This document shows positions 28,986 to 32,510 of a stretch of DNA of 32,510 bases, piece after piece; within the stretch, counting starts at the first letter, position 1; the number at the start of each line of letters is the position of its first letter. A program made the position numbers and the translations under genes. Under the pieces are notes generated by a model, which saw only the letters and a program-made list of their open reading frames with translations, did no database searches and was not told the origin of the DNA. The DNA comes from Candidatus Bipolaricaulota bacterium (GTDB taxonomy: Bacteria; Bipolaricaulota; Bipolaricaulia; Bipolaricaulales; Bipolaricaulaceae). Where the stretch lies: positions 1 to 32,510 of the forward strand of contig JACIWI010000002.1 of assembly GCA_014361055.1 (NCBI GenBank), given 5' to 3'.

Positions 28986-29537
28986 ATGGAGACTGGGGTG
29001 ATCTTCGCTGGGTTTGGCGGACAGGGGATCCTCCTTGCCGGGAAGGTGCTGGCCCGGGCGGGGATGGACCAGGGGCTCGAGGTGACGTGGCTTCCTTCCT
29101 ATGGTCCGGAGATGCGCGGGGGGACCGCCAACTGCACGGTGATCCTCGCCGACGAGCCCGTGGGGTCGCCGATCGTGGACGCCCCGCGGGCGCTGGTGGC
29201 GCTGAACGGGCCGTCGCTGGATCGATTCGAGCCCAAGGTCGCCCCGGGCGGAGCGGTGGTGGTCAACAGCTCCCTCGTCCCGCGGCCGGTGCGCCGCAAG
29301 GACGTGCGGGAGATCCCGGTGCCGGTGAACGACATCGCCCGGGAGCTCGGGGAGCCGCGGACGATCAACATGGTCGCGTTGGGGGCGGCGGTGCGGGCGC
29401 TCGGGATCCTGCCGCTCCAGGCCGTGATCCAGGCCATGGTCGAGGAGCTGGGGGAGCGGGGCCGCAAGCGGCTGGTGGAGGTCAACCGGGAGGCGCTCGC
29501 GCGGGGGTACGCCGAGGCCGGGAGGTTCTTGGCATGA
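28986..29537 (+). CDS. 2-oxoacid:ferredoxin oxidoreductase, gamma subunit
   Basis: A 183-residue subunit of the pyruvate/ketoisovalerate oxidoreductase gamma family. Signatures are GVIFAGFGGQGILLAGKVLARAG (5-27), SYGPEMRGGTANCTVILAD (37-55), a LVALNGPSLDRF segment, and NMVALGAAVRALGILPLQAV near the C-terminal third. It completes the delta-alpha-beta-gamma complex. ATG 28986 follows a perfect GGAGGTGAC, so the longer frame upstream, which would read through the repeat element, was rejected. Its last 13 codons (from 29500) are part of a segment duplicated 1155 bp downstream, where only the tail survives. Confidence 0.93.
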   Translation: METGVIFAGFGGQGILLAGKVLARAGMDQGLEVTWLPSYGPEMRGGTANCTVILADEPVGSPIVDAPRALVALNGPSLDRFEPKVAPGGAVVVNSSLVPRPVRRKDVREIPVPVNDIARELGEPRTINMVALGAAVRALGILPLQAVIQAMVEELGERGRKRLVEVNREALARGYAEAGRFLA

Positions 29538-29566
29538 GATGATGGGCACGGTGCTCCCGTTTGCTG

Positions 29567-29588
29567 TGCCAAAATGGCATTCTTTTTT
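29567..29588 (+). terminator. Short hairpin with T-run after the oxidoreductase operon (copy 1)
   Basis: TGCCA-AAA-TGGCA (29567-29579) is followed by TTCTTTTTT. The stem has five pairs, three of them GC, so it is a modest intrinsic terminator. It lies inside the long direct repeat, 30 bases after the gamma stop. Confidence 0.5.
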
Positions 29589-29605
29589 GTTCTCTTCCAC
29601 CGGCC

Positions 29606-29634
29606 TTGACACGACCTTGTGCCCCCGGTAACAT
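29606..29634 (+). promoter_or_regulatory. Strong sigma70-type promoter, copy 1 (Cys-rich cassette)
   Basis: A consensus -35 TTGACA (29606-29611) and TAACAT (29629-29634) are spaced by 17 bases. Predicted start near 29641, giving a leader of about 98 bases to ATG 29739. It is the duplicate of the promoter at 30761-30789, which serves the transporter binding protein. Confidence 0.75.
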
Positions 29635-29738
29635 CGATTTTGCAACATCCTTGCCTTCAGGGGGTGGTGCTCGGGACACAAGCCCACGAGGAAACCTCTC
29701 AGGAAACCAACACCAAACCGCGATAAGACGGGTGAATC

Positions 29739-30194
29739 ATGAGAGTGAGGCCGTGCTGGACGCTTGCGGTTGTGGTCCTGGCAGGGGCCATGGGGCTGAT
29801 CGCGGAAGCCTCTGGACTAGGGCAAAGTAGGTTCACACACGACGTACAACCACAGACGGCATGTATTCCCTGTGCCAAAATGGCGGTTGGTATGTCCAGC
29901 ACAACATGCTGGTGGGAGGAAGTAGGGGACCAGGTCTGCTACTACTGTGCTGAGTCTTTTTGCTCCAGAGAAGGTTTAAACCCTGTGTGCTATTACTCGT
30001 GTCTCCCCGCATGTGCGACCGGGTGTCTAGGGGCCGGTTGGTGGAAGGGTTTCTGGTGCGGCTTGGGCTGCTACTATATCTGTCAGGAGTTGTGTTGGGG
30101 GTGTGCGGAGTGGGGCTACAGAACGGTGTGTTACCACTGCACCGATCCTGGCGTGCCTTGGCCCACGGGTAAGCCGTTTGTGCTTCTCAAATAG
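29739..30194 (+). CDS. Exported cysteine-rich protein of unknown function (17 Cys in mature part)
   Basis: A 151-residue protein I do not recognise. Residues 1-24 are a signal peptide nearly the same as that of the binding protein at 30896 (MRVRxCWxLAVVVL, then LAGAMGL). The mature part has 17 cysteines between 42 and 134. Cys84, 88, 92, 96 and Cys107, 111, 115, 119 form two series with a period of exactly four. CxxC pairs sit at 42/45, 67/70, 119/122 and 131/134. Aromatics follow Cys repeatedly (CYYC, CYYSC, CYYIC, CYHC, CWW), and residues 66-96 and 110-134 look like rough internal repeats. Candidate roles are a disulfide-rich secreted peptide (bacteriocin-like) or a periplasmic metal binder; neither is shown. 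Codon use is less GC-rich than neighbours. The Shine-Dalgarno sequence is degraded relative to the other copy (AAGACGGG). Confidence 0.72.
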   Translation: MRVRPCWTLAVVVLAGAMGLIAEASGLGQSRFTHDVQPQTACIPCAKMAVGMSSTTCWWEEVGDQVCYYCAESFCSREGLNPVCYYSCLPACATGCLGAGWWKGFWCGLGCYYICQELCWGCAEWGYRTVCYHCTDPGVPWPTGKPFVLLK

Positions 30195-30216
30195 GTCTTG
30201 AACGGAGGCGAACTAC

Positions 30217-30651
30217 GTGCACTGGAAGAAGAACGAGGCCTGGACCGAAGTTCTCTTGATCGGTATGTGGGTGGGCTTATTGTTCCTCGCTCGCTCCCAA
30301 CCGGCTGTCCTGCTCTGGTATACCTGCTTGGCCACATCGTTCATGGCCCTACGTGGTGCCGCAGCGGTGGAGGTGCTCCTACCCAACCGATGGGCCCGTG
30401 GGCTCATCTCCCTTGGGTTCGCCGGCGCGCTCGCTTGGTTCACGGCCTCAGGCACCTGGGGTAGGTGGACCACGGACATGATCTGGGAGCACTTGAAGCC
30501 CGGGCACCTCGTGTTGGCCGCCGTGGCCACGTTGGTGACCGTTCTTGTGGTTGCGTCCCTCCTGCCGACTCGCCTGCGCACACGCGTGTTTGGTCACAGC
30601 ATGCTCACGGGTGCGCGGTCGGAGGGCACAACCAAACCCGACAGGAAGTGA
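30217..30651 (+). CDS. Small membrane protein with four predicted segments, unknown function
   Basis: A 144-residue protein with no recognised family. Hydrophobic segments are near 11-25, 29-49, 61-78 and 97-115, with a charged C-terminal tail (119-144) rich in Arg, Thr and Lys. One Cys only (residue 37). GTG 30217 was chosen because GGAGG lies eight bases upstream. It begins 22 bases after the Cys-rich gene, with no promoter or terminator between, so the two are probably cotranscribed. The gene ends three bases before the second copy of the long repeat, so it is wholly unique to the inserted segment. By position it could be an export, immunity or membrane partner of the Cys-rich protein; this is inference only. 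Confidence 0.68.
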   Translation: MHWKKNEAWTEVLLIGMWVGLLFLARSQPAVLLWYTCLATSFMALRGAAAVEVLLPNRWARGLISLGFAGALAWFTASGTWGRWTTDMIWEHLKPGHLVLAAVATLVTVLVVASLLPTRLRTRVFGHSMLTGARSEGTTKPDRK

Positions 30652-30721
30652 GTACGCGGGGGTACGCCGAGGCCGGGAGGTTCTTGGCATGAGATGATGG
30701 GCACGGTGCTCCCGTTTGCTG

Positions 30722-30743
30722 TGCCAAAATGGCATTCTTTTTT
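30722..30743 (+). terminator. Short hairpin with T-run (copy 2), after the membrane-protein gene
   Basis: Same TGCCA-AAA-TGGCA stem and T-run as copy 1. Here it would end the cassette transcript, since it follows the membrane-protein stop by about 70 bases. Confidence 0.45.
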
Positions 30744-30760
30744 GTTCTCTTCCATCGACC

Positions 30761-30789
30761 TTGACACGACCTTGTGCCCCCGGTAGCAT
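30761..30789 (+). promoter_or_regulatory. Strong sigma70-type promoter, copy 2 (binding protein)
   Basis: TTGACA (30761-30766) and TAGCAT (30784-30789) are 17 bases apart. The -10 differs from copy 1 in one base (TAGCAT against TAACAT), so copy 1 should be slightly stronger. Leader of about 100 bases to ATG 30896. Confidence 0.7.
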
Positions 30790-30895
30790 CGATTTTGCAA
30801 CATCCTTGCCTTCAGGGGGTGGTGCTCGGGACACAAGCCCACGAGGAAACCTCTTAGGAAAGCAACACCAAACTGCGATTCAAGGAGGGTGAACC

Positions 30896-32510
30896 ATGAG
30901 AGTCAGGTGGTGCTGGGCGCTTGCGGTCGTGGTCCTGTTCCTGGCAGGGGCCATGGGGCTGGCTCAGGGCAAGACGTTCATCATCGGGACCACCCAGGAG
31001 CCGGATGAGTTCTCGCCGTTCTCCACCATGGCCACTACAACCCAAATCGATGGGATGATGAGCGCGGGGATCTACTTCCGCACCGACACTTGGGACACGA
31101 TTCCTTATACAGTCAAAGCCCTTCCGTCGTTTGACGCAGGGACATGGCAAGTATTCGAACCCGGAACGGGGCCCAAGGTGGTGGACGAGTGGACGGGCGA
31201 GCTCGTGGATGTGGTAATGATCACCGAGTACGAGCTGTGGCCCAACATCCGCTGGCATGATGGGACTCCGTTCACCGCTTCGGATTACCTGTTCGGCCGT
31301 CAGTTCTACCTCAACAAGAACGTCCCTGTGGTGACCCGAACGGTGGCCGAAAAGGTGGCCTTGCTTCAGGCGGTCGGCCCCTACAAGTTGGTGGCCTATT
31401 GGAAGGAGAAGTACCCGTTCGCCAACCTCACCTTCGGTTCCGGGGCCTATCCGGAGCACGTCCTCGGGGTTGCCTACAAGCAGGGCGTGGAGACCGGGGA
31501 TTACAAGGCCCTCATCCACCACCGTTACTGGACCGTGGACTACTTCAGCAACGGCCCGTACAAGCTCGCGGAGTGGGTCCGCGGGTCGCACATCAAGCTC
31601 GTGCGCAACGACGACTTCTTCCTGACCAAGCTCAACCCCGAGGATTACGCGTACCTGAAGCAGTTCTACACGTGGGTCGATGGTCCAATCGGCCCCGAGT
31701 ACTTCCGCCCCAAGTTCGACGAGATCGTGTGGCGGTTCATCGAGGACACGATGACCCTGGAGGTCATGCTCCGCACCGGAGAGCTGGACGCCAACCTGGG
31801 GGTGACGATCCCGTTCGACCAGGCCCTCGCCCTGTTCAAGGACGTGCAGGCGGGGAAGGTGGCCGCGGACATCTTCGTGGGGTTCGTGGAGGCGGTGGTC
31901 TGGGAGCACATCGACATCAACAAGGCCGACGACGCCTACTACCAGGAGCGTGGGCTGGACATCCCCAAGTACGGGTACATGCGGGAGGCGTTCCGCGATG
32001 TGCGCGTGCGGCAGGCCTTGGTCCACGCCATCGACCGTGAGGCCATCACCGAGGTCATGTTCGAGGGGCGCCAGAAGGTGTCCCACGCCCCGCTGCAGAT
32101 GAAGCACCCCCTCATGTCCCCCGAGGCCGAGGCGGTCATGACCGTCTACGAGTACGATCCGGCGAAGGCCAGGGAGCTCCTGGCTGCGGCGGGGTGGACG
32201 CTGGGCCCTGACGGGATCCTCCGCGACGCCCAGGGGCGGAAGTTCGTGGTGAACATCCGCACCACGGCCGGGAACACCACCCGGGAGCAGATCCAGCTCC
32301 TCATCGCGGACTACTGGAAGAAGGTCGGCATCGAAACCGAGATCGACAACATGCCCGCGAGCGCCCTGTTCTCCAAGGAGCACATGTACGAGTTGCAGTT
32401 CCCCGGGGCGATCATGTTCGCTTGGGTCTCGTACCCAACGAGCCTGGGCGACACGCTGTGGCAGTCGAAGCAGATCCCGCCCAAGGGCCAGAACGTGGCG
32501 TTCTACGTGA
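30896..32510 (+). CDS. ABC transporter substrate-binding protein, peptide/opine/nickel type (family 5), C-terminus outside window
   Basis: The visible 538 residues start with a signal peptide (MRVRWCWALAVVVLFLAGAMGLAQG). The mature part matches the SBP_bac_5 family of dipeptide/oligopeptide binding proteins: FIIGTTQEPDEFSPFST at the start, LWPNIRWHDGTPFTASDYLFGRQFY (about 112-136), FSNGPYKLAEWVRGSHIKLVRND near 214-236, VRVRQALVHAIDREAITEVMF near 367-387, and YDPAKARELLAAAGWTL near 419-435. It binds a ligand outside the inner membrane and hands it to a two-permease, two-ATPase importer, presumably encoded just downstream. No lipobox is seen, fitting a free periplasmic protein. A strong Shine-Dalgarno AAGGAGGGTGA precedes ATG 30896. 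No stop occurs before the window end. Confidence 0.93.
   Translation, partial: MRVRWCWALAVVVLFLAGAMGLAQGKTFIIGTTQEPDEFSPFSTMATTTQIDGMMSAGIYFRTDTWDTIPYTVKALPSFDAGTWQVFEPGTGPKVVDEWTGELVDVVMITEYELWPNIRWHDGTPFTASDYLFGRQFYLNKNVPVVTRTVAEKVALLQAVGPYKLVAYWKEKYPFANLTFGSGAYPEHVLGVAYKQGVETGDYKALIHHRYWTVDYFSNGPYKLAEWVRGSHIKLVRNDDFFLTKLNPEDYAYLKQFYTWVDGPIGPEYFRPKFDEIVWRFIEDTMTLEVMLRTGELDANLGVTIPFDQALALFKDVQAGKVAADIFVGFVEAVVWEHIDINKADDAYYQERGLDIPKYGYMREAFRDVRVRQALVHAIDREAITEVMFEGRQKVSHAPLQMKHPLMSPEAEAVMTVYEYDPAKARELLAAAGWTLGPDGILRDAQGRKFVVNIRTTAGNTTREQIQLLIADYWKKVGIETEIDNMPASALFSKEHMYELQFPGAIMFAWVSYPTSLGDTLWQSKQIPPKGQNVAFYV

Follow-up and report, generated by a model that had tools for sequence, protein, structure and literature searches.

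Contig JACIWI010000002.1, a stretch of 32,510 nucleotides referred to here as the window, is contig C63 of a 1.56-Mb draft genome of a Candidatus Bipolaricaulota bacterium (GCA_014361055.1; 150 contigs, 92% complete). Near its end, two genes that we call CysR, for a cysteine-rich precursor, and MemP, for a small hydrophobic protein, lie between the gene for the gamma subunit of a 2-oxoacid:ferredoxin oxidoreductase (gamma) and that for SBP, the family-5 peptide-binding protein of an ABC transporter. The pair is flanked by two direct copies of a segment of about 300 bp that holds the start region of SBP, and probably owes its expression and secretion signals to that duplication.

An earlier note, made from the letters alone, had reported that the segment 29500-29798 recurs at 30655-30961, and alignment of the copies returned the same coordinates. 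The copies differ by 14 substitutions over 299 aligned bases and by two gaps, one of 2 nt before the start codon and one of 6 nt (two codons) within the signal peptide. Outside the start-codon region, where the note had estimated about six substitutions, we counted 6 differences in 225 positions (29500-29724 against 30655-30879), and the longest exact run in this block is 100 nt. Identity is 86% over the following 56 nt (29725-29780 against 30882-30937; 8 differences), and the last 18 nt (29781-29798 against 30944-30961) show no difference. When the whole genome was searched with the repeat, only the two copies matched strongly, with expectation values (E) of 1e-154 and 2e-128, and the repeat is therefore far beyond chance; two other matches, of 24 and 27 nt, had E 0.009 and 0.06. 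The repeat was found in none of 35 other genomes, in which matches at E up to 0.1 spanned only 21-42 nt (E 0.002 or worse). Past 29798 and 30961 no significant similarity was detected, as 209, 188 and 416 of 500 shuffles scored at least as high in three tests on DNA, and 42 of 500 when the CysR and SBP mature parts were compared as proteins. A homology of CysR and SBP continuing into the mature part was dropped after these tests.

The differences are unevenly spread: there are none in the first 100 nt of the copies and 11 in another 167 nt, made up of the other 125 nt of the 225-nt block and 42 positions of the signal peptide (p = 0.008). The gamma tail has no evident function in copy 2, yet it lies within the identical first 100 nt. 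Gene conversion, selection and chance all fit this spread, which cannot tell them apart, and recency is likewise not separable. The copies diverge most (8 of 56 sites) at the Shine-Dalgarno sequence and the first signal-peptide codons. The Shine-Dalgarno sequence is AAGGAGG in the SBP copy (duplex with the 16S tail, -13.5 kcal/mol) and AAGACGG in the CysR copy (-10.5 kcal/mol), and the divergence at these sites looks as if expression of CysR and SBP had been tuned apart.

Each copy contains the final gamma codons and stop, a hairpin, a promoter, a leader of about 100 nt, the Shine-Dalgarno region and 20 or 22 signal-peptide codons; all the elements listed in the note are thus found in both, the hairpin being weak (6 pairs, -6.4 kcal/mol). 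A consensus scan of the region found two promoter-like sites, against 0.3 expected, one in each copy. By its position, copy 2 sets the hairpin of gamma behind MemP and the SBP promoter after it. With that hairpin in place and the SBP promoter kept, the duplication could have supplied both the front and the back of a transcription unit. An Rfam scan of 29400-31100 gave no match up to E 5. A third copy of the 15-nt word of the hairpin, CTGTGCCAAAATGGC, lies inside the CysR coding sequence. The 14-nt core of this word has three sites in the genome at one mismatch or fewer, all of them here, and the backward control has one match; a word as long, common to insert and repeat, appeared in 1 of 1000 insert shuffles and in 0 of 139 other contig stretches. 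This third copy, which was spotted after the fact, may have been left by templating during the event or have arisen by chance.

The two genes between the copies had been described in the earlier note as of lower G+C and unique in the window. Neither CysR nor MemP matched elsewhere in the whole genome, and the composition of the insert is atypical: G+C and third-position G+C are 57% and 0.64 for CysR and 63% and 0.79 for MemP, as compared to 63% and 0.90 for SBP and 68% and 0.91 for the gene of the oxidoreductase (POR) beta subunit. Among 60 genomes, CysR matched in two, its own and one coded G015 (37% identity, E 1e-4), and MemP only in its own. Neither protein had a family match above cut-off in Pfam, NCBIfam (for CysR also queried to E 10) or PHROGs; one NCBIfam match of MemP, at E 0.003, was far below cut-off. 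The strongly hydrophobic stretches of MemP span residues 7-25, 37-55 and 98-116. In CysR, eight cysteines are placed as mirror images, at residues 84, 88, 92 and 96 and at 107, 111, 115 and 119, so that each pair sums to 203. A structure model puts helices at residues 82-99 and 105-120, and the mirrored cysteines would then form up to four disulfide rungs between the two predicted helices. No sequence in the PDB matched the core up to E 1, and the best fold match of the poor CysR model (E 2.0) was dismissed as meaningless. A likeness to halocin C8 was also set aside, as no match supported it, the presence of a halocin C8 model in NCBIfam being unchecked. The features are collected in Table 1.

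Table 1. Features of the CysR-MemP locus (positions in the window)
Feature	Position	Strand	Basis or content
Repeat copy 1	29500..29798	+	gamma tail, hairpin, promoter, leader, weaker Shine-Dalgarno, CysR signal-peptide codons
Repeat copy 2	30655..30961	+	gamma-tail remnant, hairpin behind MemP, promoter, leader, stronger Shine-Dalgarno, SBP signal-peptide codons
Insert, 856 nt: CysR mature part and MemP, ending 3 nt past the MemP stop	29799..30654	+	repeat borders, composition
CysR, 151-aa precursor, 18 Cys, signal peptide common with SBP	29739..30194	+	open reading frame
CysR Cys core (CX3)3C-X10-C(X3C)3, mirror-symmetric, residues 84-119	29988..30095	+	predicted disulfide-laddered helix pair
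MemP, 144 aa, candidate immunity or partner protein	30217..30651	+	three strongly hydrophobic stretches
Sigma-70-like promoter of CysR-MemP, TTGACA-17-TAACAT	29606..29634	+	consensus scan
Sigma-70-like promoter of SBP, TTGACA-17-TAGCAT	30761..30789	+	consensus scan
Hairpin and T-run, candidate gamma terminator, copy 1	29566..29590	+	scan and folding
Same hairpin and T-run, copy 2, beginning 70 nt past the MemP stop codon	30721..30745	+	scan and folding
Third copy of the 15-nt hairpin word, inside CysR coding sequence	29870..29884	+	about 70 nt past the junction
Gamma subunit gene, 2-oxoacid:ferredoxin oxidoreductase	28986..29537	+	Pfam POR, E 2e-44; last codons are the left end of copy 1
SBP, family-5 peptide-binding protein of ABC transporter	30896..32510, cut by contig end	+	Pfam SBP_bac_5, E 2e-54

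A profile built from the CysR cores of the window and G015 was searched in 100 genomes of the phylum. At E 0.01 it matched in three, the window genome (G000), G015 and, weakly, G064 (E 9e-4). A second-profile search at E 0.05 gave 10 rows in nine of 100 genomes, and the same three genomes were kept. Seven short, weak rows were dropped, six of which contain stop codons, as was a second match of the first profile in G064 (L052), which lies in another reading frame of a gene that by eye is permease-like. The mirrored arrangement recurs in G064 (residues 186, 190, 194, 198 and 209, 213, 217, 221; sum 407) and, with exactly one mirrored pair fewer, in G015 (91, 99, 103 and 115, 119, 127; sum 218), and the loop between the halves is 10 or 11 residues in all three. 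In both G015 and G064 a gene for a small hydrophobic protein lies directly 3′ of the CysR-like core, and both genes have a lower G+C or third-position G+C than their surroundings. Scans of plasmid, phage, viral-contig and first genome-contig collections with the Cys core found no relative; in two of them 42 and 87 stretches matched a peptide pattern and none was confirmed. With a DNA form of the Cys ladder, the viral-contig scan returned at least 120 stretches, and the 80 examined (L114-L193) held 131 ladder matches, of which the 60 least repetitive were mostly in CX3-repeat proteins. Since CX3 spacing is common in repetitive viral-contig proteins, Cys spacing alone is no proof of kinship. Open frames of 326-513 codons with long CX3 runs and 31-60 cysteines were seen at the viral loci L123, L132, L157, L176 and L186.

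The precursors of the three cores differ in their N-termini. That of CysR is the SBP signal peptide, and the leader with DGSVPWP is absent. The G015 relative has a leader with GDGSVPWP, which it shares with a different Cys-rich gene in another genome, G034 (71% DNA identity over 129 nt, E 2e-12, equalled by 0 of 500 shuffles). The G064 precursor has some 170-185 residues ahead of the core (the start codon is uncertain) and no clear signal peptide. Cassettes of the same kind appear to exist elsewhere with other N-termini, which the note could not see, and the hairpin that copy 2 sets behind MemP had no mention in it.

In G015, the cassette lies within a 3,174-bp island between two genes that we take to be ScpB and DUF1385. 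In G020, a sister genome, the blocks flanking the island are 95-96% identical to those of G015 and meet with 2 bp between them, the island being cleanly missing. Both flanking genes were present in 12 of 15 genomes in a stretch with neither redoxin nor CysR between them; in the rest, G018 has no DUF1385 match there, and G015 and G034 carry islands. The G034 island (L250, minus strand) holds a full redoxin-like gene followed by the Cys-rich gene, with transposase-like sequence, read by eye, at its left part. Compared with G015, the G034 Cys-rich peptide keeps the leader and has the core exchanged. In G015 (L070:6587-8420) the redoxin-like gene is broken up; the first 206 residues of its product are 84% identical to those of G034, and the order is redoxin N-part, redoxin end and leader, CysR core and membrane gene, redoxin C-terminal piece and a leaderless second Cys-rich core. 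The C-terminal piece (63 nt, 81%, E 7e-12; 25 residues, 56%) is fused to this second core, and it stands before the leader in G034 and after the cassette in G015. The Pfam and NCBIfam matches of the redoxin-like gene were below cut-off (AhpC-TSA, E 8e-5; dsbE, E 0.0075); a disulfide-rich product would be in keeping with such a neighbour, present in both G015 and G034. If tail and leader had been duplicated on either side of the G015 cassette and had later eroded, the order of the pieces would be explained as in the window, and this possible second case is suggestive, not proof. Repeats of at least 25 nt were searched in the G015 and G064 stretches, and none remains.

We also considered the genes on either side. 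The gamma protein is 92% identical in amino acids to that of G001, a genome of the same genus, and its C-terminal end resembles several other family members. A close homologue of SBP was found in none of 23 other genomes at E 1e-60; at E 1e-10, proteins with 34-39% identity occur in 6 of 11 other genomes, and a paralogue in its own genome has 30%. In the genome-contig collection, 21 of 28 pattern-matched stretches were confirmed, at 26-33% identity, all from Thermus, Meiothermus and other Thermaceae. The region 3′ of gamma was read in 17 relatives, the genes being labeled from their sequences and not by family search. In four (G001, G005, G012 and G018) it holds a transporter operon along with a promoter and a small secreted protein; a NUDIX-like gene stands in eight, a cation-efflux-like gene in two and other genes in three. 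The binding protein was read directly in G001, and in G005 and G012 it is suggested by the permeases behind, its frame being hidden by an antisense open reading frame. In G001, gamma has an unusual C-terminus and a different transporter operon follows, and the region 3′ of gamma varies strongly in the family. A binding protein of the G001 type was not found in the window genome at E 1e-20, in a search without positive control. Similarity of the promoter and leader to the transporter operons behind gamma was equalled, for G005, by 1 of 300 shuffles with copy 2 and by 6 of 300 with copy 1, and for G001 by 55 and 98 of 300; with copy 1 the counts were 192 of 300 for G018 and 197 of 300 for G012. 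This gives weak support for a promoter and leader common to these operons.

Together, these observations suggest that a foreign, leaderless cassette of two genes, the CysR mature domain and MemP, was fused in frame after the resident SBP signal-peptide codons, in one or two events that would also have duplicated some 300 bp, from the tail of gamma to the end of those codons. Copy 1 would now drive and export CysR. Copy 2 would keep SBP intact, and its hairpin would close the CysR-MemP unit and shield SBP, so that the insertion would cost the neighbour nothing. CysR would be secreted by Sec and folded in an oxidising compartment to a helix pair with up to four disulfide rungs; judging from the architecture, it may act on other cells in a bacteriocin-like manner, with MemP as an immunity or helper protein. 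Taken with the roles of the copies and the bacteriocin-like function, we regard this account as reasonably probable. The capture of promoter and signal peptide proposed in the earlier note is thus supported, and its direction, from SBP to CysR, gains indirect support: codon composition, the quality of the Shine-Dalgarno sequence and the other leaders in the CysR relatives favour CysR as the recipient. Because the two units differ in content, a single tandem duplication cannot explain the layout. Two routes seem most likely, and the choice between them is left undecided: either the stretch from the gamma tail to the SBP start was duplicated locally and one SBP body was then replaced illegitimately, or template switching produced a duplicative insertion in a single step. 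Once present, the repeats should allow homologous recombination to delete or amplify the 1,155-bp unit, leaving an intact gamma-SBP locus.

The layout is formally symmetric, and the reverse history can be read from it: CysR-MemP, already equipped with this promoter and signal peptide, would have been the first to follow gamma, and SBP would have come later and taken a copy of the start region. That SBP lacks a close homologue in the relatives searched fits this view, as does a comparison of signal peptides: by eye, the hydrophobic core in CysR is just as short as in the G015 relative, which would suit CysR as the donor. However, third-position G+C is native in SBP and not in CysR, the better Shine-Dalgarno sequence is that of the SBP copy, the DGSVPWP leader of the G015 and G034 Cys-rich precursors is absent here, and a promoter-led transporter operon with a binding protein follows gamma in four of the 17 relatives, which makes the reverse direction improbable. 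Integration of a circle (Campbell type), by which an excised molecule with one copy of the segment and CysR-MemP recombined into a single-copy locus, would yield exactly the order segment, cassette, segment, and the present repeats would permit a 1,155-bp circle. The segment holds the native gamma tail, however, so that the circle would have had to arise at this locus, in the same strain or one very close to it, and the first joining of cassette and segment would be left unexplained; integration is possible, not needed, and on balance decidedly improbable. An assembly artefact could have joined short reads of two strains, or swapped partners within the shared run between a chromosomal gamma-segment-SBP and a separate MemP-segment-CysR circle or tandem. 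The genome is a 150-contig draft, the contig breaks off within SBP, and MemP abuts the 100-nt exact run common to the copies. Against such a fault, which is unlikely and to our mind very much so, 14 aligned sites and two gaps differ, so that neither copy is an assembler echo, and reads or large k-mers are commonly longer than an exact repeat of 100 nt.

Capture from SBP, then, is the account that we prefer, and several observations weigh against it or its parts. The layout is known from a single draft assembly of one strain. The overall G+C of SBP is as low as that of MemP, and chance could account for the sites with a hairpin and T-run, of which 2 were found and 1.4 expected. Gamma directly followed by SBP without the cassette was not found among the relatives searched, because SBP has no close homologue in them; the direction of capture is for this reason inferred. 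The helices of CysR come from a model of low confidence, with a predicted local distance difference test score (pLDDT) of 54. MemP has no similarity to the G015 membrane protein, the only one with which it was compared (BLAST E 0.34), and the kinship of G064 rests on Cys spacing and a weak profile match, among Cys-rich proteins that match one another easily. In G015, the duplication is deduced from order only, since the two flanking pieces share no overlap, and a leader-bearing fragment inserted from another island would explain the locus equally well. A broader proposal, in which the CysR core and its membrane gene form a leaderless, promoterless mobile cassette that recurrently enters behind resident signal-peptide codons, duplicating the stretch from gene tail to leader, leaving the resident gene whole and exchanging its N-terminus at each site, is put forward as a rather doubtful one. 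As to function, CysR may instead be a structural or signaling secreted protein, for instance of the cell envelope, with MemP as an envelope partner and the history of the locus unchanged. No toxin, bacteriocin or immunity family was matched, and 151-156 aa is long for a bacteriocin. The patchy distribution (two of 60 genomes) and atypical composition fit a mobile pair of peptide and immunity genes better than a housekeeping protein, as do the differing N-termini and the coupled small membrane gene, and we see the structural or signaling role as a real, if lesser, possibility.

Bacteriocin and immunity gene pairs are the general class with which the cassette can be compared. As in such pairs, a secreted Cys-rich precursor is followed by a small membrane protein, with patchy occurrence and atypical composition; the export signal and the adjacent small membrane gene are present in the window, by sequence and hydropathy, and the gene order is the same in G015 and G064. 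Unlike them, CysR and MemP have no family match above cut-off in the libraries used. Insertion sequences, integron cassettes and other known mobile cassettes offer another comparison: a short gene unit is found at different chromosomal places, in the window with direct repeats at its edges. In contrast to these, neither insert gene belongs to a transposase or integrase family and no recombination site was recognised in the insert; two inverted pairs (71-74% complementary) were found, neither of which bounds it. The direct repeat also sets the locus apart, as it consists of some 300 bp of host DNA. The alpha-hairpinin motif is CX3C...CX3C. Plant alpha-hairpinins are described as peptides of plant defence that have four cysteines in their motif and fold as helix-loop-helix (PMC7191063, PMC11591084). 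CysR is similar in its mirror-spaced CX3C segments, short loop and two predicted helices, the latter from a low-confidence model, and differs in having eight ladder cysteines (six in G015) instead of four, in being bacterial and larger, and in its extra cysteines outside the core.

PMC11111574 describes how tandem duplications, formed by illegitimate recombination without classical homology, can capture a promoter, and cites the Cit+ case of the long-term experiment with E. coli, his genes in Salmonella and silent transferred genes in E. coli. In these, as in our window, the duplication brings a host promoter to a gene that was silent or foreign and leaves the donor gene with a copy of its own; here a duplicated host promoter, by consensus, stands directly 5′ of a gene foreign to the locus. 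Unlike the capture described there, the window segment also carries a leader, a ribosome site, in-frame signal-peptide codons and, in its second copy, a terminator-like hairpin. The locus also differs from a plain tandem duplication, as its first unit is CysR-MemP and its second SBP, with similarity ending at the signal-peptide codons. A keyword search of one open-access library returned no bacterial signal-peptide or regulatory capture of this kind, nor a leader-swapping cassette that captures a whole front end with signal peptide and a terminator, which is no proof of absence.

The gain of expression and secretion signals by transferred genes is usually studied via laboratory selection, and here we have what appears to be a natural case. 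A single duplicated segment seems to have supplied promoter, leader, ribosome site, signal peptide and terminator, at no harm to the donor. Should the cassette change its N-terminus time and again, this would be a route by which secreted bacterial peptides come to new precursors. The CysR cores also point to an undescribed family of Cys-ladder peptides, as a target for fold studies and assays.

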